64,000 bases of DNA from Labilibaculum sp. DW002 (GTDB lineage: Bacteria; Bacteroidota; Bacteroidia; Bacteroidales; Marinifilaceae). A program made the translations under genes and the position numbers. The notes beneath the pieces are model-generated. The model saw only the letters and a list, made by a program, of their open reading frames with translations. It made no database searches and was not told where the DNA came from. Positions 7,059 through 39,056 of this stretch are shown piece by piece. How positions within the stretch are numbered: the stretch's first letter is position 1; each line of letters starts with the position of its first letter. The stretch covers positions 2,640,987-2,704,986 of the forward strand of contig NZ_JAKJSC010000001.1 of assembly GCF_029029525.1 (NCBI RefSeq), read 5' to 3'.

Positions 7059-7334
7059 ATGTTCAAGTACATACTAATTACCTTAGGAGCTATATGCTTG
7101 CTTAGTGCTTTCTTTTTTGTTTACAAATGGTATTCATCATATGCTAAATTTAAACGAAAAACCTTAACGGATATCCTTTTAAAGGGACATTATCGCCCAA
7201 TGCATATAGACCCTAAAGAATCTAATTTTAATCAGGCCCAAACTAAAACTTTAAATACTTGGATATATCTTATTTACGTAGCTATGGTAATCGGATTTAT
7301 TTTAGCAATGACTTTTAAAGCGATGAAATTATAA
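7059..7334 (+). CDS. Small membrane protein with two predicted segments
   Basis: A 91-residue protein with an N-terminal membrane segment (about residues 4-24) and a C-terminal one (about 68-87), joined by a basic, polar loop (FKRKTLTDILLKGHYRPMHIDP). It starts 21 nt after the preceding gene. No family is recognised. A 36-codon open frame encoding a third hydrophobic helix overlaps its 3' end in another frame, so the gene may once have been longer. Confidence 0.55.
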   Translation: MFKYILITLGAICLLSAFFFVYKWYSSYAKFKRKTLTDILLKGHYRPMHIDPKESNFNQAQTKTLNTWIYLIYVAMVIGFILAMTFKAMKL

Positions 7335-23785: not shown

Positions 23786-25441
23786 ATGAAAGAAAATAAA
23801 ATAAAAATTGGTTTAGCTTTTTCTGGTGGTGGTTTTCGAGCTACATCCTTTAGTCTTGGAGTTTTATCTTTTTTGAATTCCATAAAATTAAGTGACCAAT
23901 CTTTACTAACGAGAGTTGTTGCTCTTTCTACAATTTCAGGAGGAACTATTACTGGAACAAGATATGCAATTGGAATAAAAAAAAATGAAAGCTTCGAAGA
24001 AATATATTCATCACTATATAAGTTCATGTCTCAAATTGATTTAATTGACCTTAGCTTAAGTGAACTGATATCAAAGAATGAATGGAGTAGTAAGGGAATA
24101 AACAGTTTAATTAGTGCATTTGCAGATGTGTACGATAAAGAGTTATTTAATCAAGAGAAATTTGGAATTTTGCTAACCGACAATAATCCGATTCACTTAA
24201 AGCATATTTCATTTAATGCTACTGAATTTGCAAATGCTTTGCAGTTTAGGTTTCAACGTACAGAAAAAATACGTAATCCTAAGGAAAATGAACCAGATAG
24301 AGGAATTATTGGAAATTACTACTATCGAATTCCTGAAAATATTGCGAAAAATATTCGGATGGCAGATATACTTGCAGCATCTTCGTGTTTCCCAGGAGGT
24401 TTTGAACCAATCAATTTTCCCGATGATTTTAGTTTACCTCAATCCAAAGAAAATGAAGATGTTTTTAGAAACAACAACTTCCCAGTTGGATTAATGGATG
24501 GTGGAATCGTTGATAATCAAGGAATAGAACCTTTGTTGCTAACTGAAGACAGAATGAAACGCAATCGAGCTGATAGTTCGGATAATGATTCTAATGAATT
24601 AGACCTATTGATCATTTCAGATGTAACTAGCCCATACATGGAGGATTTTAAAGCTAGTAAGAAACAGAAAAAAAGTTTCTTAAGAACGTTATCCCCTCAA
24701 ATAATATTTATAGCTAATTCAATTCTCCTGCTCTGCTCTTTAGTTGGTTTGTTTTTTTCTATTAAAAATGGGCTTTTACTATCAATAATTATACTTTCTT
24801 CTTTATCAACTTTAAATATTTTATTATTTATTATTGCTACAGTCATAAAAAAAATGCCTGAAAAGTTTCAAATTCCACAGGCATTCATGAAGCCGTTCAC
24901 AAAACTTTTGAAAATCAAATTAGGAGTTTATGAGAATCTAATATTAAATAGAACAAATTCCTTGTTAAAGATGACTAATGATGTCTTCTTGAAACATATC
25001 AGAAGACTAAACTATAATAAAATTTACACTGATAAATCTTGGAAAAACAGACGTATTATGAATGCTATTTATGAACTGAGATTTGGTGAACAAAAACTTC
25101 AAAACAAAATAAAAAATCAGAAAATAAACAAAAGTCTTATTCCTTCTAAAGCTTTACAGGAGGTTGCTACAGTTGCTGCAAGTATGGGGACAACTTTATG
25201 GTTTACTAAAGATGAACTTAATAAAAAAAACATGCTTAATTCTATCATTGCATGTGGTCAATTTACAATGTGTTGGAATTTATTAGAATATATCGGTAAA
25301 ATAAAGTCAAATCCTGAAAATATAAATGAAAGCCACAATGAATTGATTAAATCTGAGAGTATTGTTTTATTGTATTGGGAGAAATTTAATAAGGATCCTT
25401 ATTGGCAAGTAAATGAAATAAATAATAAAACAAACTTTTAA
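23786..25441 (+). CDS. Patatin-like phospholipase with membrane segments
   Basis: A 551-residue lipid hydrolase of the patatin superfamily. The oxyanion loop SGGGFRAT is at residues 13-20, the nucleophile is S51 in STISGGT, and the catalytic aspartate is D238 in LMDGGIVDNQG. Two hydrophobic helices (about 305-330 and 335-355) suggest membrane attachment, followed by about 195 residues without a known domain. Bacterial patatins of this kind serve as membrane-damaging effectors in defence systems. It is followed after 2 nt by an MBL-fold gene, so the two are translated as one unit from promoter S2. What would activate it is unknown, as no nucleotide cyclase is nearby. Confidence 0.85.
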   Translation: MKENKIKIGLAFSGGGFRATSFSLGVLSFLNSIKLSDQSLLTRVVALSTISGGTITGTRYAIGIKKNESFEEIYSSLYKFMSQIDLIDLSLSELISKNEWSSKGINSLISAFADVYDKELFNQEKFGILLTDNNPIHLKHISFNATEFANALQFRFQRTEKIRNPKENEPDRGIIGNYYYRIPENIAKNIRMADILAASSCFPGGFEPINFPDDFSLPQSKENEDVFRNNNFPVGLMDGGIVDNQGIEPLLLTEDRMKRNRADSSDNDSNELDLLIISDVTSPYMEDFKASKKQKKSFLRTLSPQIIFIANSILLLCSLVGLFFSIKNGLLLSIIILSSLSTLNILLFIIATVIKKMPEKFQIPQAFMKPFTKLLKIKLGVYENLILNRTNSLLKMTNDVFLKHIRRLNYNKIYTDKSWKNRRIMNAIYELRFGEQKLQNKIKNQKINKSLIPSKALQEVATVAASMGTTLWFTKDELNKKNMLNSIIACGQFTMCWNLLEYIGKIKSNPENINESHNELIKSESIVLLYWEKFNKDPYWQVNEINNKTNF

Positions 25442-25443
25442 CT

Positions 25444-26391
25444 ATGGAAATATTAGCGAAGCATACAAGATTTAGGGCATATCAATTAAAATCGAAAGGT
25501 TCTTCATTTTCTTATTATAATGGTGTTCAGTTTGTGCTAGGTGAAGCTCGTTACAACGATGACAATAAAGCATCAATATTACATGAATTAAAAGTATGCA
25601 ATAAGACTTTCATTAATGTTCTTCATATTACTAGCTGGGATTCTGACCATTGTGCGTCAGCAGACTTAGAGGCAATACTCAAGGAACTTAAACCTAGGGT
25701 AATTGAATACCCTGGTCATGAAATTAATAAAGAAATACAAAATCAAATTGATTGTCTAAAACTAATAACAGACTATGTAAACAAAGATAATAAAACACCT
25801 AAAACAATAGAAGCCAATAGTTTAAATAGTCAATATATTTCAAAGTTAAATAATGCTATCCAATGGTCTTACAACAATATTATTTTCAACAACGACAAGA
25901 ATCACAAAGAAGAAAATAATAATTCCAATGTGAAATTATTTAAATCTGGTAGTTTCTCAGTTTTAAGTTTAGGTGACCTTGAAAAGAAAGAGATTAGTAA
26001 TTGGCTGTCTAGTTTTTCATGCATAAAAAAAGAGGTAGATGTTATGTTGTTGGCGCATCACGGCTCTGACAATGGATTTACTTCCACGGATTTCTTAGAT
26101 GTTGTAAAACCAAAAATGGCAATTTCATTATCCAACTGGAATAATCAACACAATCACCCAAGTGATGCAATAATTCAGCGACTTAGGAATAAAAAGATTG
26201 ATTACTATTCTACAAAGCAAGGGGATTTAATTATTGAATCTACAAATGATCATACTCGAAAATATGCGGTTTGGAATTTCATTGCTAATGGTGAAAAACT
26301 AAAAGAAGCCCCAAATGAATATAAAACCAAAAGAGCTTCTCAAGAATCTATTGATAAACTTACAACAGCAATAAAGAACATGAAATTGTAA
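25444..26391 (+). CDS. MBL-fold (ComEC-like) hydrolase, partner of the patatin
   Basis: A 315-residue metallo-beta-lactamase-fold protein. The metal-binding motif is HITSWDSDH (61-69), a variant of HxxxxDxDH, and the second conserved segment is LLAHHGSDNGF (about 202-212) followed by KPKMAISLSNWNNQHNHPS, as in the soluble ComEC/Rec2 hydrolase domain. Members act on phosphodiesters or nucleic acids. It has no signal peptide or membrane segment. The 2-nt gap to the patatin gene points to a joint function, e.g. removing or making a signal nucleotide. That last step is inference. A long palindrome (P2) follows 9 nt after the stop codon. Confidence 0.8.
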   Translation: MEILAKHTRFRAYQLKSKGSSFSYYNGVQFVLGEARYNDDNKASILHELKVCNKTFINVLHITSWDSDHCASADLEAILKELKPRVIEYPGHEINKEIQNQIDCLKLITDYVNKDNKTPKTIEANSLNSQYISKLNNAIQWSYNNIIFNNDKNHKEENNNSNVKLFKSGSFSVLSLGDLEKKEISNWLSSFSCIKKEVDVMLLAHHGSDNGFTSTDFLDVVKPKMAISLSNWNNQHNHPSDAIIQRLRNKKIDYYSTKQGDLIIESTNDHTRKYAVWNFIANGEKLKEAPNEYKTKRASQESIDKLTTAIKNMKL

Positions 26392-26400
26392 AGCACGAAA

Positions 26401-26538
26401 CACTAACAATGTATAATAATAGCCGAAATAGTGGTGAAATCAACGGTTGTATCTCACTTCAATTTTCTTGTAACTTGACAGAAAAGTGCCACGCAATCGG
26501 CTACTATTCTTATACGCAACGTGAGGCGCAACGTTAAC
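26401..26538 (+). repeat. Cassette-type imperfect palindrome P2 (about 138 bp)
   Basis: Arms CACTAACAATGTATAATAA / TTATACGCAACGTG and TAGCCGA / TCGGCTA fold back across a central region containing GAAATCAACGG. It ends CGTTAAC. It belongs to the same family as P3 and P4. Confidence 0.65.
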
Positions 26539-26570
26539 AACATAGTAGTAAGCAATAATTAATTAAGATT

Positions 26571-27881
26571 ATGAGACAAATAGAAGCAAAATTTTCATTT
26601 TTTAAAGCTGGACAAGGTTCATTTTATGGTGGACGAATTTGTCAACATGATACTGGAAAAGTATTTACTATTGTTTATGACTGTGGTACAACACGATTTA
26701 TTAAAGGAAACAATCAATCATTAAATAATGAAATAGATATTTTTAAATATCCGCCGCATTATTTCCCCCACAATAACGAAATTGATTTATTGTTTATTTC
26801 ACACTTAGATTACGACCATGTTTCAGGTTTAAAGCGACTTTTGAAAGAGTTTAATGTAAAAAATATTATTTTGCCTTATATTGAAAAAAAAGATAGACAA
26901 TTTTTTTTAGTTTCAGTTTCTGGTGATGATAATCCTGATAATAGTTTATCCATAGTAGATTATATTTCATTTATTGAAAGCCCCGACCAATTTATACTAC
27001 AAAACAGCGAAAGCAAGGAGGTTAAAATATTCTTCGTTAAATCTAATGGTAAAACTAATATAGAATATAAAGACTATGACAATGAAAATCAATCGGAATC
27101 TATTTATCCACGTGGCACTCCTGCTGAAAATGAAGAATACACAAATCAACGAAGTGTTTCAGTATATGAGAATAACTTGCAATTTTTTATTGAAAAATAT
27201 TGGGAATTTACAACTTATGCGAAAAGCGTTAACCAAAAAGCTATTACAAAATTACATGATTGCTTAAGAAAGACGTTAAATAAAAACTCCAGTAAGGACT
27301 TAACTTTTGAAGATTTAAAAGAGATTGTAACTGATAATAGAAAAGAAGCACATGATTGTTATACGAATTGTATTGGAGACATCAACTCTCACGGACTGAT
27401 TCTATTGCATGGCCCAATACGTTTTGAGCACCTTTGTGGGCGAGTCTATTCTAGTTGTGAATTTAATCATGCTTCTAATGATTTCAATCACCGCCATTTT
27501 CACGATGACTATCATTTCAGAAAAAGAAACCTCAACATGTTGGGAACACTCCTTTTTGGAGACAGTTCAATTAATCCAAATAATAATCCAATTGATTTCC
27601 CAATGGCATTTAAGGATAAACTGGTTAATGTTCATATAGTACAAGTACCTCACCATGGCTCCTCAGAAAATTGGGATTTTGACGCATTTAAGAATTTGAA
27701 AATTGGTGATTCCTTCAGTCGTTGGGATAATCAAGTTATTGCAGTTTGTAATTTTGGCTATGGAAATACATATGGACATCCATCTCATAAAGTTCTAAAT
27801 GATTTACGTTCTACGATATTCATGAATACACAATTTTCTAGACTAAATATTAAATATAGCATTATACATTACAGACCATAA
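26571..27881 (+). CDS. Second MBL-fold (ComEC-like) protein
   Basis: A 436-residue MBL-fold protein with the metal motif SHLDYDHVSG (about 79-88, HxDxDH), VYDCGTT before it (about 36-42) and HHGSSENWDFD at about 362-372. It is longer than its neighbour and carries a helical insertion (about 200-280). It has no export signal. It forms a unit of its own between palindromes P2 and P3, in the manner of a gene cassette. MBL proteins of this type occur beside defence ATPases, but the substrate is unknown. Confidence 0.78.
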   Translation: MRQIEAKFSFFKAGQGSFYGGRICQHDTGKVFTIVYDCGTTRFIKGNNQSLNNEIDIFKYPPHYFPHNNEIDLLFISHLDYDHVSGLKRLLKEFNVKNIILPYIEKKDRQFFLVSVSGDDNPDNSLSIVDYISFIESPDQFILQNSESKEVKIFFVKSNGKTNIEYKDYDNENQSESIYPRGTPAENEEYTNQRSVSVYENNLQFFIEKYWEFTTYAKSVNQKAITKLHDCLRKTLNKNSSKDLTFEDLKEIVTDNRKEAHDCYTNCIGDINSHGLILLHGPIRFEHLCGRVYSSCEFNHASNDFNHRHFHDDYHFRKRNLNMLGTLLFGDSSINPNNNPIDFPMAFKDKLVNVHIVQVPHHGSSENWDFDAFKNLKIGDSFSRWDNQVIAVCNFGYGNTYGHPSHKVLNDLRSTIFMNTQFSRLNIKYSIIHYRP

Positions 27882-28234: not shown

Positions 28235-31132
28235 ATGCCAAATATAGAAGGAATAGGTTTACAAAATTTTAGGACTTTTAATAAAAAAGAAGAACTTGAA
28301 TTTGCGCCAATTACATTAATTACAGGTACTAATAATGCAGGGAAAAGCTCTATTTTCAGAGCGATACAATTCTTGATTCATAATTTTAAAGATGGAATAG
28401 TTTCAGAAAACTTAGATTTTAAGACTATGCAACATGAACTTGGAAATCTTGAACGCGTAGTTAATCGAGTTACAATGGAGACTTTCAAAGATTCAAAACT
28501 TCCCAAAAGTCAACATATGTATTCAAGACTTGCTGATTTTCATAAAAATAATGGGAAGGACTCCTGTGAACTACCTGTTTTTAAAGAGGATGAAGATTTA
28601 GTATTTACTTTTCCAATTCTATTTGGAGGCAGACGAGAGATAAGTGCAGCTATAGAAGTTAGATATGAGCTAAAGCGTTTTATACATAAGAAAGAAGATA
28701 GAGAAGAAGTAACAGTTTCACACGATATTAAAAATATTGCCATTGTAAGGAATGGAGAATATCTTCATTGGTCAAATATAATAGGATATAGAGAGAATTA
28801 TGATGAAGCTCCTGAGTGGGAAATGGTAACAAATATTGATTTAAAAAAAATTATTCAACTTATAATAGATACACCAATTGTAGAAATAAACGAAAAATTA
28901 GAACCTAATGAAAAAACGGAAGATTTTTTTACTATTGACCTATATAGTAGAATTAAAAAGTATAACCACACTTACTTTGATTTTCCATTCTTTAAAAATA
29001 CAAATGATGACTATGAAGCTTTTACAGAAAAATTCATCAAAGGAAAAAGTTTATTCTCTGATTATTCAGGATTAACCAAAGAAGAGAAGTCGAAACTACT
29101 AGCTATTGAAGAAAAAATCACGACTGAACTTCTCAAAGGAAAAGATAATAGCCAGTATAAAATCTTGGAATGTTTCAAAAATAGTTTTTCTAATATTCTG
29201 GATGGTATGGAAAGAGACATTGTAAGTGCTGAGCTTAAAAAAGAAGAACCAGAAGAAGAACAAAATAGCAAATCACAGAGCTTGCGTGAACTGTATAATT
29301 CTCAAATGTTTCAAACAACCCCTAATAGTGAACTTTTTACAAACCTATTGAACGCGATAGAAAAAGATTTTATTGATACTGTTCAGAAGAAAATTGATTG
29401 TTTAAAAAAGGTTTATTTTCTACCAACAACAAGAGGTAGAAACAGAGAATGGTTTATTGATGAACAGAATAGTGAAGACATTCAAATTGTAAGAGATTTC
29501 TCTGCTATATATTTAGAACATCATCCACAAATCAAAAGTTTTGTGAATTTTTGGATTGGAAAAGGAGAAATTGATGAATTGGATGAAAATGGAAAAAATA
29601 AACAGAAAGGCTTCAAAATTGGGAAAGAACTTTCAGTATTTAGAGACGAGGCGATAGGGTTAACTAAAATATTTTTAGTCAATTTTGATGATACAAAAAC
29701 GCCTTTAGTCGATTTAGGATATGGTGTTTCCCAATTGCTGCCAATCATTATGAAGGTAGCTATTATTGCCCAAAAGCATCAAAGCATACATGAATATGCA
29801 TGGAATGATCAAGACGGATTTTATGAAAAACAAACAATATATTTCAATCCTTCAACTTTGTTAATTGAAGAACCAGAAGCTAACCTACATCCATCTTTAC
29901 AATCAAAAATGGCGGAATTATTTATTGATGCGGCTTCTAGGTTTAATATACAATTTATTATAGAAACACATAGCGAGTATCTAATTTATAAATTTCAAGA
30001 ATATGTAGGTCAAAAAATAGTTTCTACCAGTGACATTAGAATGTATTACTTTAATCACCCTAATGATGTAAGAGAAGGATTGAAAGATAAGTACATCAAT
30101 CATGTTCAGATTGATAACGATGGCAGCATTGATTATAACAAGTATTTTGGAAAAGGCTTTTTTGATGAGCAAACTAATTTGAAATTAAGCTTGTTGAATA
30201 TTCAGAGAAACCGTTTTATTGAAGATTATAATTCAATAAATGAAAAACTTAAAGAGTCTCATGAAAAACTTGTAGACTATGATGCTAAAATAGAAAAACT
30301 CAATCAGGAGCTGTTAACTACAACTTCGGGGAAGAATGATTTAGAAGAACAGCTTAATAAAATAGAAAGAGAGAAAGAGGAAAAAGAATTAGAACTTCAA
30401 AAACTTATAAAAGAACAAGAAGAAAAAATTGATGAGTATGTTGCTAAAAATGACTATTCAAAGTATAAAACAGAAGTTGAAGCGATTATTGATAAAACTA
30501 AAATTAGTAATTCAAAAACACTCCAATATTTATCAACAGGTAAGTTTCTACTAAAGAATTTAGATGATAGTGCTGATTTTGCGCCTGTTATTATTCAATA
30601 TGGTCGAGCAGTTGAATTTGAGTTAAGAAAATGGTTGGATGATTTTAAAAGTAGTATCATTTCTACTGATATACCTAGCTTGTGTAACGATACAAACTAT
30701 AAAGATAAATTTAGACAAGTATTTTCTGATTTGGGACTTATTCTTGTCGATAATGAAATTAATTATGAAATAAACACAGGTGAAAAAATAGACTTGTTTA
30801 ATCTAAGAAACTATATACAAAGTAATCCTAAGTGGACATTTGGAAAATCTACCCAAATTTTTGAATTATTTTACTATGTCTCACCAACAAAAAATTCTAC
30901 TTATAATTATAACTCTGTGGCTTTAATCGTAAAATTTTCAAATTATTTGAAGAGTATTTGGACAGATTATCATACGGCAGAAGGATTATTTGATACTTTT
31001 CGAAATATATTAGATTTGAGAAATTGTGCTGGACATACTTATAATAGTAGTGTTTGTGCCAGTGATATTATTGATAAGAATACAGCAGAGATTTACGTTG
31101 CTAAGGTTGAAGCTATATTTAAATGTTTATAG
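28235..31132 (+). CDS. OLD/RecF-like AAA ATPase with C-terminal HEPN-type motif
   Basis: A 965-residue protein. The ABC-type ATPase has Walker A GTNNAGKSS (31-39), signature-like LGYGVSQLLPI (about 490), Walker B LLIEEPEANLHP (about 545) and the H-loop ETHSEY (about 580), as in DUF3696/OLD-family ATPases. A coiled coil spans about 665-750. Instead of the Toprim domain of OLD nucleases, the last 170 residues are helical and contain RNCAGH (929-934), which fits the HEPN ribonuclease motif RNxxxH. An ATPase sensor fused to a HEPN RNase is typical of abortive-infection systems. It stands alone between palindromes P3 and P4. The HEPN call rests on the motif and helical context only. Confidence 0.78.
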   Translation: MPNIEGIGLQNFRTFNKKEELEFAPITLITGTNNAGKSSIFRAIQFLIHNFKDGIVSENLDFKTMQHELGNLERVVNRVTMETFKDSKLPKSQHMYSRLADFHKNNGKDSCELPVFKEDEDLVFTFPILFGGRREISAAIEVRYELKRFIHKKEDREEVTVSHDIKNIAIVRNGEYLHWSNIIGYRENYDEAPEWEMVTNIDLKKIIQLIIDTPIVEINEKLEPNEKTEDFFTIDLYSRIKKYNHTYFDFPFFKNTNDDYEAFTEKFIKGKSLFSDYSGLTKEEKSKLLAIEEKITTELLKGKDNSQYKILECFKNSFSNILDGMERDIVSAELKKEEPEEEQNSKSQSLRELYNSQMFQTTPNSELFTNLLNAIEKDFIDTVQKKIDCLKKVYFLPTTRGRNREWFIDEQNSEDIQIVRDFSAIYLEHHPQIKSFVNFWIGKGEIDELDENGKNKQKGFKIGKELSVFRDEAIGLTKIFLVNFDDTKTPLVDLGYGVSQLLPIIMKVAIIAQKHQSIHEYAWNDQDGFYEKQTIYFNPSTLLIEEPEANLHPSLQSKMAELFIDAASRFNIQFIIETHSEYLIYKFQEYVGQKIVSTSDIRMYYFNHPNDVREGLKDKYINHVQIDNDGSIDYNKYFGKGFFDEQTNLKLSLLNIQRNRFIEDYNSINEKLKESHEKLVDYDAKIEKLNQELLTTTSGKNDLEEQLNKIEREKEEKELELQKLIKEQEEKIDEYVAKNDYSKYKTEVEAIIDKTKISNSKTLQYLSTGKFLLKNLDDSADFAPVIIQYGRAVEFELRKWLDDFKSSIISTDIPSLCNDTNYKDKFRQVFSDLGLILVDNEINYEINTGEKIDLFNLRNYIQSNPKWTFGKSTQIFELFYYVSPTKNSTYNYNSVALIVKFSNYLKSIWTDYHTAEGLFDTFRNILDLRNCAGHTYNSSVCASDIIDKNTAEIYVAKVEAIFKCL

Positions 31133-31488: not shown

Positions 31489-32967
31489 TTAAAATGGAGG
31501 AGTATCGTCAAAATTACTATCGTAATCTTTAGGCGGATGATTCATACTAGAGGAAAATGTTTTCACATCCTCCAAACTCTCCCTACCAAAAGAATATGAA
31601 ATTTCACCTTCTAAATCCGTAAATCGTGCTAATTGATTTCGATAACGTAATTGGATTTCTCCACAAGCACCATTACTATGTTTTGCAATAAAAACATCTG
31701 CTATACCTATTAATGAATTTCCCTCAGCATCTTCAGTTATACCATAGCGATCCGGACGGTTAAGTAACAATATTAAATCTGCATAAACATCAAGTGAATA
31801 TGCCGAATCTAAATCTACAAGCATAGGACTTTTTGCTTCACCAGTTCGTTGCTCCACCCCTCTTTCAAGAGACGATGTTATCACGATAGGAATATTCAAT
31901 TTCATAGCAAGCCTTTTTAAATCCTTAGATATTTCAACTAGCTTATCTTTTTGATTCCCATAATATGTTCCTCTTGATCTTATCAATTCAATACCATCTA
32001 TAACAATACACTCTATGTTTAATTTGGCTTTTTTTCTGAAGCAATCGATTTCTAAAGTTTTGATATCTATATCAGCAATATCATCTATATAAATTGGTGC
32101 TTTTTTCAATTCTTCAACTCTACTACTAAGTATCTCCTCTTCGAAACTTTCAAGATTACCACTTCTTAATTTTTCTGAACCCAATTCTGATTCACTGCTC
32201 AATATGCGTTTTACAAGTTTATCATCTTTCATTCCTAAAGAGAATACGGCAACCGGAATTTTATGATCGACTGCCATATTTCTGACCATGGTTAAAACAA
32301 AAGCCGTTTTTCCCATTGAAGGACGCCCTCCAATAACGATAAGCTCAGAATTTTGAAACCCTGATGTAACTCTATCGAGAGCAATAAAGTCAGACGGAAC
32401 ACCGCAAATTCCATCGTCGCGTTTTCCTGCTTCCGATATTTGATCTAAAGTCTGATCAATCAATTGATGAAACTGAGGTGATTCCTTTTTAATATTATCT
32501 TCGATTAAATTAGAAATATCCCCTTGCACCTTACTCAATAAATCCAATACATCTAAACTGTCATCATAAGCCATAGTTTGAGCTTCAGCTGACATTCTAA
32601 TAAGTTCACGCTGAATAAATTTCTGAACAACTATTCTAGCATGAAATTCGATATGAACAGCACTAGCAACACGAGAAGTTAATTGTGAGACATAATAAGG
32701 TCCTCCAACACTTTCTAGATCACCCTGTCTCTTAAGCTCTTCTGTTACAGTAAGAATATCAATCTGTTCATCTCTAGAGCTCAATTCTAATATAGATTTA
32801 TACAATTTCTGATGAGCCTGTTTATAAAATGACTCTGGCTTCAATATACTTTTCACTTTAATAATAGAATTCGAATCTATCATTATTGCCCCTAATATTG
32901 CCTCTTCTATTTCTATTGCTTGAGGAGGTAAATACTCAGAAATTGGCGACTTAATCATATTGTTCAT
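31489..32967 (-). CDS. Divergent DnaB-type replicative helicase paralogue
   Basis: A 492-residue hexameric-helicase protein with the DnaB N-terminal helical domain (PPQAIEIEEAILGAIMID) and RecA-like core, Walker A GGRPSMGKT (213-221). Several motifs depart from DnaB: the usual FSLEMS is FSLGMK (G245 in place of the catalytic glutamate), the Walker B region IVIDYLQLI is IVIDGIELI (D324 kept), and the following SQLxR is SSLERG. The C-terminus ends in an acidic tip NFDDTPPF resembling SSB tails. It lies alone and divergent from the helicase unit inside the island. It is probably a specialised or inactive paralogue rather than the main replicative helicase. A 24-bp palindrome lies upstream. Confidence 0.85.
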   Translation of the reverse strand: MNNMIKSPISEYLPPQAIEIEEAILGAIMIDSNSIIKVKSILKPESFYKQAHQKLYKSILELSSRDEQIDILTVTEELKRQGDLESVGGPYYVSQLTSRVASAVHIEFHARIVVQKFIQRELIRMSAEAQTMAYDDSLDVLDLLSKVQGDISNLIEDNIKKESPQFHQLIDQTLDQISEAGKRDDGICGVPSDFIALDRVTSGFQNSELIVIGGRPSMGKTAFVLTMVRNMAVDHKIPVAVFSLGMKDDKLVKRILSSESELGSEKLRSGNLESFEEEILSSRVEELKKAPIYIDDIADIDIKTLEIDCFRKKAKLNIECIVIDGIELIRSRGTYYGNQKDKLVEISKDLKRLAMKLNIPIVITSSLERGVEQRTGEAKSPMLVDLDSAYSLDVYADLILLLNRPDRYGITEDAEGNSLIGIADVFIAKHSNGACGEIQLRYRNQLARFTDLEGEISYSFGRESLEDVKTFSSSMNHPPKDYDSNFDDTPPF

Positions 32968-33732: not shown

Positions 33733-36700
33733 ATGAAGAATATTAATAACTACGAAATAATAGATGAGATAAAATCATTCGGTCAAAACATTACACTTTG
33801 GCTTGCCGAAAATAATTCAGGAACAGAATTTGAAATTTTAACGATTAAATCTAATACTGAATTTGAAAAAAAAATAGAGCGAGTAATAAAAAATGAAATT
33901 AACTCAATAATTGACGAACAGTTTGAAGGGATTCAAAAAATAATTGAAACAGGTTATTCAAAAGAAAACAAAGTCTACTTTATTGTCTATGAAAATTCAC
34001 AAGAAGATTATGAACAAATAGAAGATTTTAATAAACAGAATTTATTGTGTTTTATTGAAACGCTCAAATTACTTAAAAAGCAAAACAGGTTTGGATTTTT
34101 CATCACACCTCAAACTGTATTGATTAATTCGAAAAATAAGATCCTGATAAAATTTATTGGCCTTTTTGAAATATTCAAATCATTCAATCAACTAGAAAAC
34201 AAATATTTATCATCTGAAATAAAAGAAGGGAAAAACCCAAAATTACAAGATGATATTTATGCTGTAGGTAAACTCTATTTTGATTATTTATCATCAAAAC
34301 AATTAATAGATAAAATTCTATCAGAAAATAGAAAAAAAAATTACAAGAAATATTCAGAGTTCATAACTGATATTGAAAATATATCTGAACCGATAAAAGA
34401 AATAACTTATAGAAATTCAATAAAAGTCGAGACACAACAGCAATTTGAGAATGATTTTGAGCCAATTCTCAAAGAAATGAATGCTTTATGTTATTGGACA
34501 ATTGAACCCGAAAAATCAAAAAATGAAAATATTACAGGACGGTTTACAACTAAAAACTATTCCGGTAGATATTTCTTAGATGACGATAATTATATTTTTA
34601 TCCCTTACTCAAAAAACTTAAATGGAGAAAATGATTACATAAGAAGAAATGGAAAAATAGCAGATTTCAATTTCGTTGATTATTCTGTCAATTTTAATTG
34701 TGTAACTTATTTTGAAACAGAGTTTGAACAAAAAAACAAACTCGCTTTACTGAACATAAAAAAACAAAGCTTAATTACTAAGTGGCAAGTTCTTCCTGAA
34801 AAGGAAAAAGAATTTATCGAAGAAAAAGCTTTTAAAGCAAGATTTTTAGAGCGAGAAGAAAGCAAATCAAACAACCAGAACATTCGTTTTAAATTAAAAG
34901 AAGAATTTAAGGATTGGGCCAATATAAAAGAGTTGAAAACTCAAAAAACTAAATTATTTATTGACGACAATATTATAGGTGAAATTTTAGATTTTAACCC
35001 CAAGGACAATTCTATAATTATCAAAGATAGCAAGCTATCAATAAATGAAATCCCTGAAATTGGTGAAATTATTCAAGATGTAAGGCAAGAAACAAGCCAG
35101 TTTAAAAAACAAGTAGAAGCCTGTAAGCAATTTGAAGCAAGAGATATTGTAAATCCTGCTATTACAGGAATACTTGCTACACCTGAAAAAACACCAACTT
35201 TTAATAGAGTAGATTTAGACTATGAAAACTTTGAGAATCTAATTGTCAATGATTATTTAAAAAATGATGAAAGTCAAAAAGAAGCTGTATTAGAAGCATT
35301 ATACAAAAAACCAGTCTATTTAATACAAGGACCTCCTGGAACAGGTAAAACAACAGTAATTGTTGAGTTAGTTCAACAACTAATTAATAACAATTCAGAC
35401 TGCAAAATATTAATTACATCTCAATCAAATTTAGCGGTCGATAATGTATTAGAACGTTTATCAGAAGATATTTTGTTTATGCGTCTTGCAAGTGAACAGG
35501 TGGTTGAAAGAGATAATATTAATTCTAAAATCAAGCCTCACTTATTTAGCAATAAACTAAAAAATTGGGTTGAGCAAACCAAAGAAAGTTCAGAAAAATA
35601 CTTTAAAACAAAGTTTGGAGATAAAACTAAAAACAAAACTCTGATCACTTTTTATAATTTCTATAATAATTTGCCAAAAAGGAATGAAAAGGAGTTGTTA
35701 ACTAAGTTTTTTGACAGGCTTAACATGAGTCATAATTATTTAAAAAGACTATTTGAAAATGCTAAATCAAAAAAAGAAATTGATAATATTTTTGAGAAAG
35801 AATTAGGGAGTAATTATAAAAAATTAATCCAGTTGCAGAAAGACTGGTTTGCATTTATATCAAATTCGTCAAGTGCTGATGGTGAACGAAAAAAGTCAAT
35901 GTTAAATAATGGCAGTAGCGAAATTGATTTATTGACAGCTTATGCAATGTCTATAAATGTAATTGGAGCCACCTGTATTCATATAGCAAGTTCAGCATAT
36001 CGTACAATTGACTTTAAATTTGATTTTGTTATAATGGATGAAGCCAGTAAGGCATCGCCAGCAGAAACTCTTGTACCAATAAATATGGCTCGAAACATTA
36101 TACTTATTGGAGACCATAAACAGTTACCTCCTGTAATAACAAGGGACAATGCAGTAAAACAGAAAATCAAGGATAGACTTGAAGATAACGGATTGGATTT
36201 TGACAAAGAATTTGGTGAGAGTTTATTTGAAAGGTTAATTACCTCTTTTGAAAGCAACTATAATTTATCGAGCTATGTCAAAATGCTTGACATTCAATAC
36301 AGAATGCCAAGACAAGTTGGCAATTTGATTTCAAAGAACTTTTATGAAAACAAACTCAAAAATCCTGACGTCAGACTAGAAAGTTTGAAAAATTACGATA
36401 AGGAGAAATTTCACAGTTTAAAATTAACCAAGCCAAATGTAAGTATAATGGATAATTATACTGAGCAAGAAGAAATTGTACCAAATTCAATTCTATTTAT
36501 TAGTACATCAAATAGAGATGATCCATATGATAATGACAATAAATTCGATCGGAAAAATCTTTGTAACATTAAAGTAATAAAAGAGATATTAGATAAAATA
36601 GATCAGTCATATCCAAATAATTCAGAAAATGAAAAACCTCTTAACATTGGGGTTATTGCCGGCTACAGAGGTCAAGTTGAATTATTAAAAGAAAGAATTC

Positions 36701-37065
36701 GGATTTCTGATTACAAGAATTTTAATATAAAACAAGAAAACAAAACAATACCGTTAATAGAAATCAATACTGTCGATAAATTTCAAGGAGCGGAGAGGGA
36801 TATTCTAATATATGATATTGTAAGAAGTAGTAAAGGAAAAAGTAACATTGGTTTTTTAGATGACTATCGTAGAATTAATGTTGCTTTATCAAGAGTAAAG
36901 CGCTTATTAATAATTGTTGGCGATAGCAACTACATAATTAAGCGAGCGACATTAAATCAATATTCAAAGTTTGGTGACTTTAAGTTGCAAAACATTGTGA
37001 AGGATTTAAGAGAACAAGGTTTGATTTACAACTCAATAAACGAGGCAATAGATGGTAAAGAATAA
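33733..37065 (+). CDS. Pseudokinase-UPF1-like SF1 helicase fusion
   Basis: A 1110-residue protein. Residues about 5-215 follow a Ser/Thr kinase fold (start NYEIIDEI, ILTIK at the lysine strand, LQDDIYAVGKLYFDYL like the DIYSLG helix), but the catalytic loop reads FFITPQTVLI instead of HRDxKxxNIL and DFG is replaced by FIG, so it is a pseudokinase. Residues about 525-1090 are a UPF1/AAA_11-AAA_12 superfamily 1 helicase: Walker A QGPPGTGKTT (about 531), Walker B VIMDEASKASP (about 765), DKFQGAERDI (about 1015) and NVALSRVKRLLIIVG (about 1050). It is followed by a partner gene that overlaps by 14 nt. Such fusions are found in defence islands. The partner's role is unknown. Confidence 0.82.
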   Translation: MKNINNYEIIDEIKSFGQNITLWLAENNSGTEFEILTIKSNTEFEKKIERVIKNEINSIIDEQFEGIQKIIETGYSKENKVYFIVYENSQEDYEQIEDFNKQNLLCFIETLKLLKKQNRFGFFITPQTVLINSKNKILIKFIGLFEIFKSFNQLENKYLSSEIKEGKNPKLQDDIYAVGKLYFDYLSSKQLIDKILSENRKKNYKKYSEFITDIENISEPIKEITYRNSIKVETQQQFENDFEPILKEMNALCYWTIEPEKSKNENITGRFTTKNYSGRYFLDDDNYIFIPYSKNLNGENDYIRRNGKIADFNFVDYSVNFNCVTYFETEFEQKNKLALLNIKKQSLITKWQVLPEKEKEFIEEKAFKARFLEREESKSNNQNIRFKLKEEFKDWANIKELKTQKTKLFIDDNIIGEILDFNPKDNSIIIKDSKLSINEIPEIGEIIQDVRQETSQFKKQVEACKQFEARDIVNPAITGILATPEKTPTFNRVDLDYENFENLIVNDYLKNDESQKEAVLEALYKKPVYLIQGPPGTGKTTVIVELVQQLINNNSDCKILITSQSNLAVDNVLERLSEDILFMRLASEQVVERDNINSKIKPHLFSNKLKNWVEQTKESSEKYFKTKFGDKTKNKTLITFYNFYNNLPKRNEKELLTKFFDRLNMSHNYLKRLFENAKSKKEIDNIFEKELGSNYKKLIQLQKDWFAFISNSSSADGERKKSMLNNGSSEIDLLTAYAMSINVIGATCIHIASSAYRTIDFKFDFVIMDEASKASPAETLVPINMARNIILIGDHKQLPPVITRDNAVKQKIKDRLEDNGLDFDKEFGESLFERLITSFESNYNLSSYVKMLDIQYRMPRQVGNLISKNFYENKLKNPDVRLESLKNYDKEKFHSLKLTKPNVSIMDNYTEQEEIVPNSILFISTSNRDDPYDNDNKFDRKNLCNIKVIKEILDKIDQSYPNNSENEKPLNIGVIAGYRGQVELLKERIRISDYKNFNIKQENKTIPLIEINTVDKFQGAERDILIYDIVRSSKGKSNIGFLDDYRRINVALSRVKRLLIIVGDSNYIIKRATLNQYSKFGDFKLQNIVKDLREQGLIYNSINEAIDGKE

Positions 37066-37990
37066 TAAACATCAAAACATATACAATAGTTTTAAAAACC
37101 ACAAGAAGACTGAAGGATACGAACTAAAGGGTATCTATGAAATCTTTTATCCTTTTTGGCAATGCAAACAAAGTATAGTGGTAGAAAAAGATGCTGAACT
37201 CGATAAGCTTAGTAAAATACTTTTAGAATTAATAAAAGCGGGTATAAATTCGCATTCTGAAATATGTAGTTTTCTTGGAATAAATGAAGATGATTTTGTA
37301 ACGATGCAGTTTCACTACCTCATAAAAAATGAATTAATAACTGAAAATAATAGTAGTTATAAAATAGAGCTTAAAGGTTTAGAATTCTTAAAAAAGAAAA
37401 GAAAAATTCAGAATACTGAAACTGTTGAATTTGAGTATTTTTATGATGACTTATCAATGGAATTACTTGATATTATAGACTACAAATACTTATACAATGA
37501 CCTATCAAAAGAATATTTTAATCCAGATACCCCTATTGACAAAAACATTTCAAAAAACAAGAAAAAACATTTCTCTGGTTATCAGGTAATTCAAACAAAT
37601 AAGTTAAAAAAGAACAATAATAAATCATTACCTAAAAACCATTTACAATATAAAAACAGACCAATTCTTAGTAAAATTAAGCAATCTGATTTTGCAGAAT
37701 TTTTTAATAGACAAAAGAAAAATATGACTTTTTACGACTATGATAACACAACCATTAAAACATACGAAAGGTCTATTCAGTTCTTACTATTGGAATTTAT
37801 AAACGATGAAAATCAAATTGACATAGAACTAAGGCAATTTAAGAGTAGTGTGAGAGAATTTAACGGATATGTATTGGAAGACAAATTATCAAAAGAAACG
37901 AATAAGTATATTAAAAAAAATGAAGATTTTATAAAGGAATTAAGAAGTTCATTTGACAATCGAGTAAATAACTTTAAGGTCAATTCCTAG
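37052..37990 (+). CDS. Winged-helix-like partner of the helicase
   Basis: A 312-residue protein whose start overlaps the helicase gene by 14 nt, indicating translational coupling. Residues about 45-125 look like a winged helix-turn-helix (LSKILLELIKAGINSHSEIC, FLGINEDDF, LIKNELI, YKIELKGLEFL). The rest is lysine-rich and helical, without a known domain. It could bind DNA or RNA for the helicase. I do not recognise the family beyond this. Confidence 0.65.
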   Translation: MVKNNKHQNIYNSFKNHKKTEGYELKGIYEIFYPFWQCKQSIVVEKDAELDKLSKILLELIKAGINSHSEICSFLGINEDDFVTMQFHYLIKNELITENNSSYKIELKGLEFLKKKRKIQNTETVEFEYFYDDLSMELLDIIDYKYLYNDLSKEYFNPDTPIDKNISKNKKKHFSGYQVIQTNKLKKNNNKSLPKNHLQYKNRPILSKIKQSDFAEFFNRQKKNMTFYDYDNTTIKTYERSIQFLLLEFINDENQIDIELRQFKSSVREFNGYVLEDKLSKETNKYIKKNEDFIKELRSSFDNRVNNFKVNS

Positions 37991-38093
37991 CGGATATCCT
38001 GTCGCACTAATATACGTACTATTCTCACATAAAATAATTAATAAAGTTAGGGATATACTTTTGTAAATATCTTAAGTGTTGATCTGTAACTTC

Positions 38094-39056
38094 CTAAAAA
38101 TCAAACCTTTTCCTATGCTCCTTAATCCTTTCCAATGAAGGATAAAAACTCTCATTTCCAGGGAGAAATATTGACCGATTTTGATAATCAACCAAGCCAT
38201 TACTCGGAGAGTAATCTCGAACATTCTTGTGAATTAGAATAGTGTAATCATCAGATATGGCAAGCATACCTCTATCAAAGGCTCTGTGGATTGTTGGTGA
38301 CATTGCAATACCATTAGTGATGGTATCATCATGGGTTTCTGCAAATGGGATGATATGACAAGCATCGACCATGGACATTGTAGCAAAGAAATCTATTTTT
38401 AAACCTGTTACGGCGCATTGCTGGTCGTAAACTTGCTTTACAGCCTTGCGAAAGGTCGTACTTCGCATAACCAATTCCTCTTCCACTTCTGCTTTTGGTT
38501 TCTCTGTAATTATTCTTTTTACTTTCCTTGCATAGTTGAAGGCTGGGTCGAAAAGAATTTCATTTCGTATGCCCTCCGTCAAAAGCTCTGGTTTTAATAA
38601 ATCACTTTCTATATAATTTGGAAAATACGTAGACAAAATGGTTTGACGCATAATTTCACGCTGTACTGGATCTAATACTTTCACATAAAACTCTTCTGAC
38701 AATTTAGCTGCAGCAACACAGTCGACCAAAGCTCTGTAACTTTTGATTGAACTACTTTTGGTCAATGATAGTTTCTTTCCTGGAAAAGTAATGAGCTCCC
38801 AAAACTTCCCTTTCTCATTTTTCAAATGAAAAAATGGTAGGGAGAAATTGGGTGTATGACCTGTAAACACCAACTGATCCCATATATTACGAAAATGAAC
38901 GAGTAACTCACCTGTTGGTTCGATCCAGTTGTTAACGATCTCCCCTTTCTCGAATGCCTCGATAACGGCCAACAATAGAATTGGCTTGTGCGGTGCGGGG
39001 CCGTATTTGGTAGTTCCCCGTTTTAGGGATGATATCTGATTGTTTATTTGGGACAT
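38094..39056 (-). CDS. SBD-HNH restriction endonuclease, probably phosphorothioate-dependent
   Basis: A 320-residue nuclease. The N-terminal domain carries YGPAPHKPILLLAVIEAF (about 18-35) and PFFHL...FWEL, the pattern of the sulfur-binding domain of ScoMcrA/SprMcrA-type enzymes, which recognise phosphorothioate-modified DNA. The C-terminal HNH domain has DACHIIPF (231-238), HDD, NGIAMSPTIHRAFDRG (248-263). Proteins of this layout cut sulfur-modified invading DNA and occur in strains that lack dnd genes. No dnd genes are in the window. It lies 42 nt after the last gene of the tubulin operon, and may be read from it or independently. Confidence 0.8.
   Translation of the reverse strand: MSQINNQISSLKRGTTKYGPAPHKPILLLAVIEAFEKGEIVNNWIEPTGELLVHFRNIWDQLVFTGHTPNFSLPFFHLKNEKGKFWELITFPGKKLSLTKSSSIKSYRALVDCVAAAKLSEEFYVKVLDPVQREIMRQTILSTYFPNYIESDLLKPELLTEGIRNEILFDPAFNYARKVKRIITEKPKAEVEEELVMRSTTFRKAVKQVYDQQCAVTGLKIDFFATMSMVDACHIIPFAETHDDTITNGIAMSPTIHRAFDRGMLAISDDYTILIHKNVRDYSPSNGLVDYQNRSIFLPGNESFYPSLERIKEHRKRFDF

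Follow-up and report, generated by a model that had tools for sequence, protein, structure and literature searches.

The window that we analysed, a stretch of 64,000 nucleotides on contig NZ_JAKJSC010000001.1 of Labilibaculum sp. DW002, contains two adjacent genes that code for homologues of MkoA and MkoB, the two proteins of type I Mokosh (Table 1). Their open reading frames share 14 nt (37052-37065), the same overlap with a winged-helix partner that the initial annotation of this DNA had pointed out. The 1422 codons of both genes are free of stops and frameshifts at about 28% GC, and each gene retains an excess of GC at the first codon position. For the kinase region of MkoA, an open frame is in itself no proof of function, because the helicase encoded downstream needs the same frame for its translation.

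Table 1. Features of the Mokosh-like gene pair and its surroundings (positions in the window).
Feature	Positions	Strand	Remarks
Patatin-like phospholipase	23786-25441		
Metallo-beta-lactamase-fold protein	26571-27881		Resembles candidate defence protein PDC-M48B
AAA_15/OLD-like ATPase	28235-31132		965 aa; best PADLOC match NsnB, E 2e-39
DnaB-family replicative helicase	31489-32967	-	Lies upstream of the Mokosh pair, in divergent orientation
MkoA homologue	33733-37065	+	1110 aa, ATG start; pseudokinase, middle region, UPF1-like SF1 helicase
Kinase-fold domain of MkoA	33733-34392	+	Residues 1-220; catalytic loop and DFG lost
SF1 (UPF1/COG1112-like) helicase core of MkoA	35266-36927	+	Residues 512-1065; Walker A at 35329-35355
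MkoB homologue	37052-37990	+	312 aa, ATG start; without C-terminal PLD domain
Winged helix-turn-helix of MkoB	37202-37420	+	Residues ~51-123
HNH nuclease	38094-39056	-	Convergent; resembles phosphorothioated-DNA-binding restriction endonucleases (NF045808, 101 bits against a curated cut-off of 180)

The pair had initially been taken not to be a described system, but the idea of a new system was dropped because PADLOC profiles for MkoA and MkoB match both proteins. The 1110-aa protein matched the MkoA profile PDLC03920 with an E-value of 2.2e-132 and a second MkoA profile with 1.4e-102 across residues 55-1068, while the 312-aa protein matched MkoB over residues 28-148 (E 6.1e-7). Canonical MkoA sequences were 28-33% identical to the Labilibaculum protein along its length. 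The initial annotation had named the absence of the partner beside homologues as evidence against its reading; a partner was present at 23 of the 23 comparison MkoA loci. Mokosh was reportedly first described by Millman and coworkers in 2022. In type I, one protein combines a helicase with a kinase and the other is a PLD nuclease (PMC11672841). The canonical loci that we found in related genomes are arranged as here: a MkoA of about 1100-1180 aa (kinase plus helicase, with HxDxxxxN and DFG) is followed by a MkoB of about 440-510 aa, composed of a winged helix, a middle domain and a C-terminal PLD with its HKD motif.

Judged from these comparisons of sequence, the Labilibaculum pair is a divergent, derived type I Mokosh operon in which the gene order and the short overlap have been retained. 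As in type I, a COG1112/UPF1-like helicase is found in MkoA behind an N-terminal domain whose kinase fold is supported by homology and by the predicted structure, and a MkoB gene with winged helix and middle domain lies alongside. Unlike type I, the kinase domain lacks the HxD motif, the catalytic Asn and the DFG Asp, and MkoB, at 312 aa, has no PLD nuclease domain. Since MkoB ends before the PLD and carries no HKD, we do not count the locus as a standard type I member but as a derived relative of this type. Mokosh type II has a related UPF1-like helicase (PADLOC matched MkoC to the Labilibaculum MkoA with E 5e-27), but there a single protein, MkoC, joins the helicase to a C-terminal PLD (PMC11672841), whereas the Labilibaculum locus consists of two genes, includes a kinase-fold domain and lacks the PLD. 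The unusual feature of the locus, which escaped the first reading, is a double loss, of kinase catalysis and of the whole PLD domain. The link to defence suspected in that reading is probably right.

The N-terminal domain of MkoA had been described as a kinase fold that has lost the HRD aspartate and DFG, and our data agree with this. When 16 MkoA N-termini were aligned, the family residues H121, D123, N128 and D141 proved to be replaced by G, F, T and F in Labilibaculum, the only sequence of the set in which HxD motif, catalytic Asn and DFG aspartate are all missing together; MkoA from a rumen MAG (L028) has HGN in place of HxD and retains the other kinase motifs. Pfam returned Pkinase for 15 of 15 homologues and no kinase match for the Labilibaculum protein. 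When a kinase profile was built from the 15 homologues, leaving Labilibaculum out, residues 1-225 matched it at 40.9 bits, a score that already includes a 15-bit correction for compositional bias, whereas the best of 200 shuffled sequences reached 6.3 bits. A structure prediction of residues 1-220, the check proposed in the initial annotation, also gave a kinase fold: the AlphaFold2 model had a pLDDT of about 75-92 over most of its length (mean 78), and its best Foldseek match was S. aureus PknB (E 6.4e-10). The model is supporting rather than independent evidence, because it was guided by active homologues in the alignment. Profile and model together support the view that residues 1-220 keep the kinase fold with the catalytic residues lost.

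As for the partner, the winged helix noted earlier is supported at residues ~50-120 of MkoB by HTH_45 (E 9e-5, slightly below Pfam's cut-off), by AlphaFold2 (pLDDT 75-88) and by Foldseek matches to the winged helices of DNA-binding proteins (MntR, DtxR and CggR; rmsd about 2.5-3, best E 0.02). Residues 142-210 and 266-312 were predicted with very low confidence, and the C-terminal part of the protein is compositionally biased. A profile of canonical MkoB from which Labilibaculum had been left out matched the protein in two pieces, at model positions 5-159 of 446 (3.6e-26) and 138-268 of 446 (6.6e-6), and the PLD part of the profile found no match in it. The alignment to canonical MkoBs covers the winged helix and the middle domain, ending where the PLD would start. 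No HKD motif is present in the protein, and no PLD reading frame follows its stop codon (37990-38200).

The helicase, by contrast with these lost parts, has all six of its motifs: GPPGTGKT (I), SQSNLAVDNV (Ia), DEASK (II), GDHKQLP (III), VDKFQGAERD (V) and RINVALSR (VI). Pfam AAA_11 and AAA_12 matched MkoA with E-values of 3e-43 and 6e-44, and the closest solved relative of this region is UPF1 (E 6e-48), so that the earlier reading of an intact UPF1-like helicase stands. UPF1 and SMUBP2 (IGHMBP2) share the SF1 helicase core but are eukaryotic proteins, and are not known to have a kinase-fold domain or a MkoB partner. In sequence terms, the locus has lost the two accessory parts with predicted catalytic activity (protein kinase and nuclease), and the helicase alone is intact. 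The helicase and the N-terminal region of MkoB are also the parts common to all loci.

A helicase-domain tree of 24 loci grouped the Labilibaculum MkoA with those of its own phylum (support 100/100), on a long branch of 1.11 changes/site. By path length and identity, the nearest MkoA is that of locus L114 (37% identity over the helicase region, 32% overall); the exact join of the two, both being long branches, is unsure. L114 keeps its kinase motifs (HKDLHPRN...DFG) and its PLD motif (HRKLLIKD), and the other near loci also look active in kinase and PLD, apart from the truncated MkoB of locus L099; both losses therefore probably occurred on the Labilibaculum branch. The Labilibaculum locus is the only one, among those examined, in which kinase catalysis and PLD are both missing.

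Searches of 59 other relatives, and around the family and order of L114, revealed no sister locus; about 390 genomes of the order to which Labilibaculum belongs held one Mokosh locus, a canonical one. Among the relatives and same-order genomes searched, the locus thus occurs in one genome only. On plasmids, tblastn found no relatives of the Labilibaculum MkoB, and the best matches to MkoA that we examined were Mokosh-type loci. Viral contigs (IMG/VR) gave no match with the first alignment and later a single Mokosh locus; its canonical-looking MkoA (L136:3519-6176) has intact kinase motifs and runs off the end of the stretch. Some genome-search matches carried 'stops inside' flags, which we dropped as signs of broken genes when separate ORF calls gave intact frames.

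Nuclease loss was also seen in other Mokosh lineages. A clade on Rhizobiales plasmids (L127, L132, L133, L134, L135 and L126; hosts Agrobacterium tumefaciens, A. fabrum, Sinorhizobium medicae, S. chiapasense, Microvirga and Aminobacter) encodes MkoA, a MkoB without the HxK motif and then a PP2C phosphatase. These loci resemble that of Labilibaculum in that a MkoB without nuclease active site stands beside a kinase-helicase; they differ in that MkoA has kept the kinase motifs HRD and DYG, a PLD-like region without HKD remains, and PP2C is present as a third gene. For the four closest sequences, pairwise omega (Nei-Gojobori, some dS values being near saturation) was 0.08-0.14 for mkoB as a whole and 0.17-0.28 for the half that was formerly the PLD, meaning that the HKD-less rhizobial MkoB is under purifying selection. 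Loss of the nuclease need not amount to a dead system, since this branch lost the motif and remains under selection. The conserved PP2C gene suggests, moreover, a phosphorylation switch in which the MkoA kinase takes part; such a switch, if part of Mokosh, would have been dispensed with by the Labilibaculum pseudokinase. Several of the three-gene loci also carry a DUF3800 gene next in line. In Acetatifactor (Lachnospiraceae; L025), a kinase-helicase is accompanied by a MkoB-like partner of about 440 aa, downstream of position 7330 on the + strand, without a recognisable PLD. In L099 (5960-7340), MkoB is truncated at 272 aa right before the PLD; behind it lie copies of a repeat and a short gene of the GxxExxY type, an arrangement that suggests a recent insertion or disruption in an otherwise canonical Mokosh locus.

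The explanation that we favour, with somewhat better than balanced confidence, is that of a type I Mokosh stripped of its catalytic accessory parts, in which the core of helicase and winged helix has probably been kept for a function other than nucleolysis. Selection can maintain a type I Mokosh that lacks the HKD motif, as the rhizobial clade shows, and by analogy the Labilibaculum locus may likewise be functional. Like their canonical counterparts, MkoA and MkoB would form a complex, and the UPF1-like helicase would load on phage RNA (or on RNA-containing or single-stranded intermediates) and translocate with ATP. The former kinase domain might no longer transfer phosphate and instead provide docking or allosteric control, while the winged helix and middle domain of MkoB could supply binding to nucleic acid or to MkoA. 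Lacking a nuclease of its own, the pair might strip or block phage transcripts or replication intermediates, or hand them to a host nuclease, instead of cleaving them itself.

A decaying remnant is the main alternative, and one that we consider unlikely but worth weighing: a canonical type I Mokosh would have been truncated at the PLD, after which the kinase drifted and the helicase has not yet been broken. The confinement of the locus to one genome, the long branch of its MkoA and the biased, poorly predicted C-terminal part of its MkoB all fit such a history, and L099 shows that truncation just before the PLD does occur. However, the absence of stops and frameshifts from 1422 codons at this GC content and the full set of helicase motifs argue against decay, as does the kinase domain, which still scores well against the family profile. 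Furthermore, nothing downstream needs the MkoB frame, yet its 312 codons are open and match the family.

Alternatively, the system could be split, with the nuclease supplied in trans (by the HNH protein of Table 1 or another host nuclease) and MkoB acting as an adaptor. The HNH protein, which resembles phosphorothioate-DNA restriction enzymes, is encoded only 104 nt downstream of MkoB, but on the opposite strand and hence outside the operon; no HNH gene recurs beside the homologues examined, the one at the Nostoc locus lying some 4 kb off, after CBASS-like genes. Nor was a Mokosh-like PLD gene found elsewhere in the genome: a search with the MkoB alignment returned this copy only, and the PLD genes present are three unlinked two-domain proteins of 492-704 aa. 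We thus consider this arrangement improbable. That the pair has left defence and serves host RNA metabolism, like eukaryotic UPF1-family helicases, would accord with the loss of both predicted effector activities and the retention of the helicase, but the patchy presence (one genome of the family), unlike that of a housekeeping gene, and the other defence-like genes among the neighbours make it very improbable.

Returning to the stripped Mokosh, a bolder version is conceivable, although we would not yet call it probable: a functional system that defends without kinase or nuclease catalysis, by means of a bare UPF1-like helicase, a pseudokinase regulator and a winged-helix adaptor, as one of at least three lineages without nuclease. 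If so, the helicase core and not the PLD would be the essential effector, or defence would work by interfering with RNA or replication without degradation. The usual description of Mokosh is that of a helicase and a nuclease acting on phage RNA; in the literature that we searched this mechanism is a domain-based inference, and we found no tested mechanism there even for canonical Mokosh. The same search, whose coverage was incomplete, returned no report of nuclease loss or of a PLD-less or pseudokinase Mokosh. Lineages that keep helicase and winged helix without the nuclease motif (and here without the kinase) amount to a natural dissection, and predict that Mokosh can do without its nuclease or replace it.

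The surroundings of the pair fit a defence island, without proving one, as its neighbours include the AAA_15 ATPase, the metallo-beta-lactamase-fold protein and the HNH nuclease. The patatin-like and metallo-beta-lactamase-fold genes, with an unmatched 315-aa protein encoded between them, possibly form a separate defence cluster (23786-27881). The 965-aa ATPase carries a C-terminal RNCAGH, which conforms to the RxxxxH pattern of HEPN RNases.
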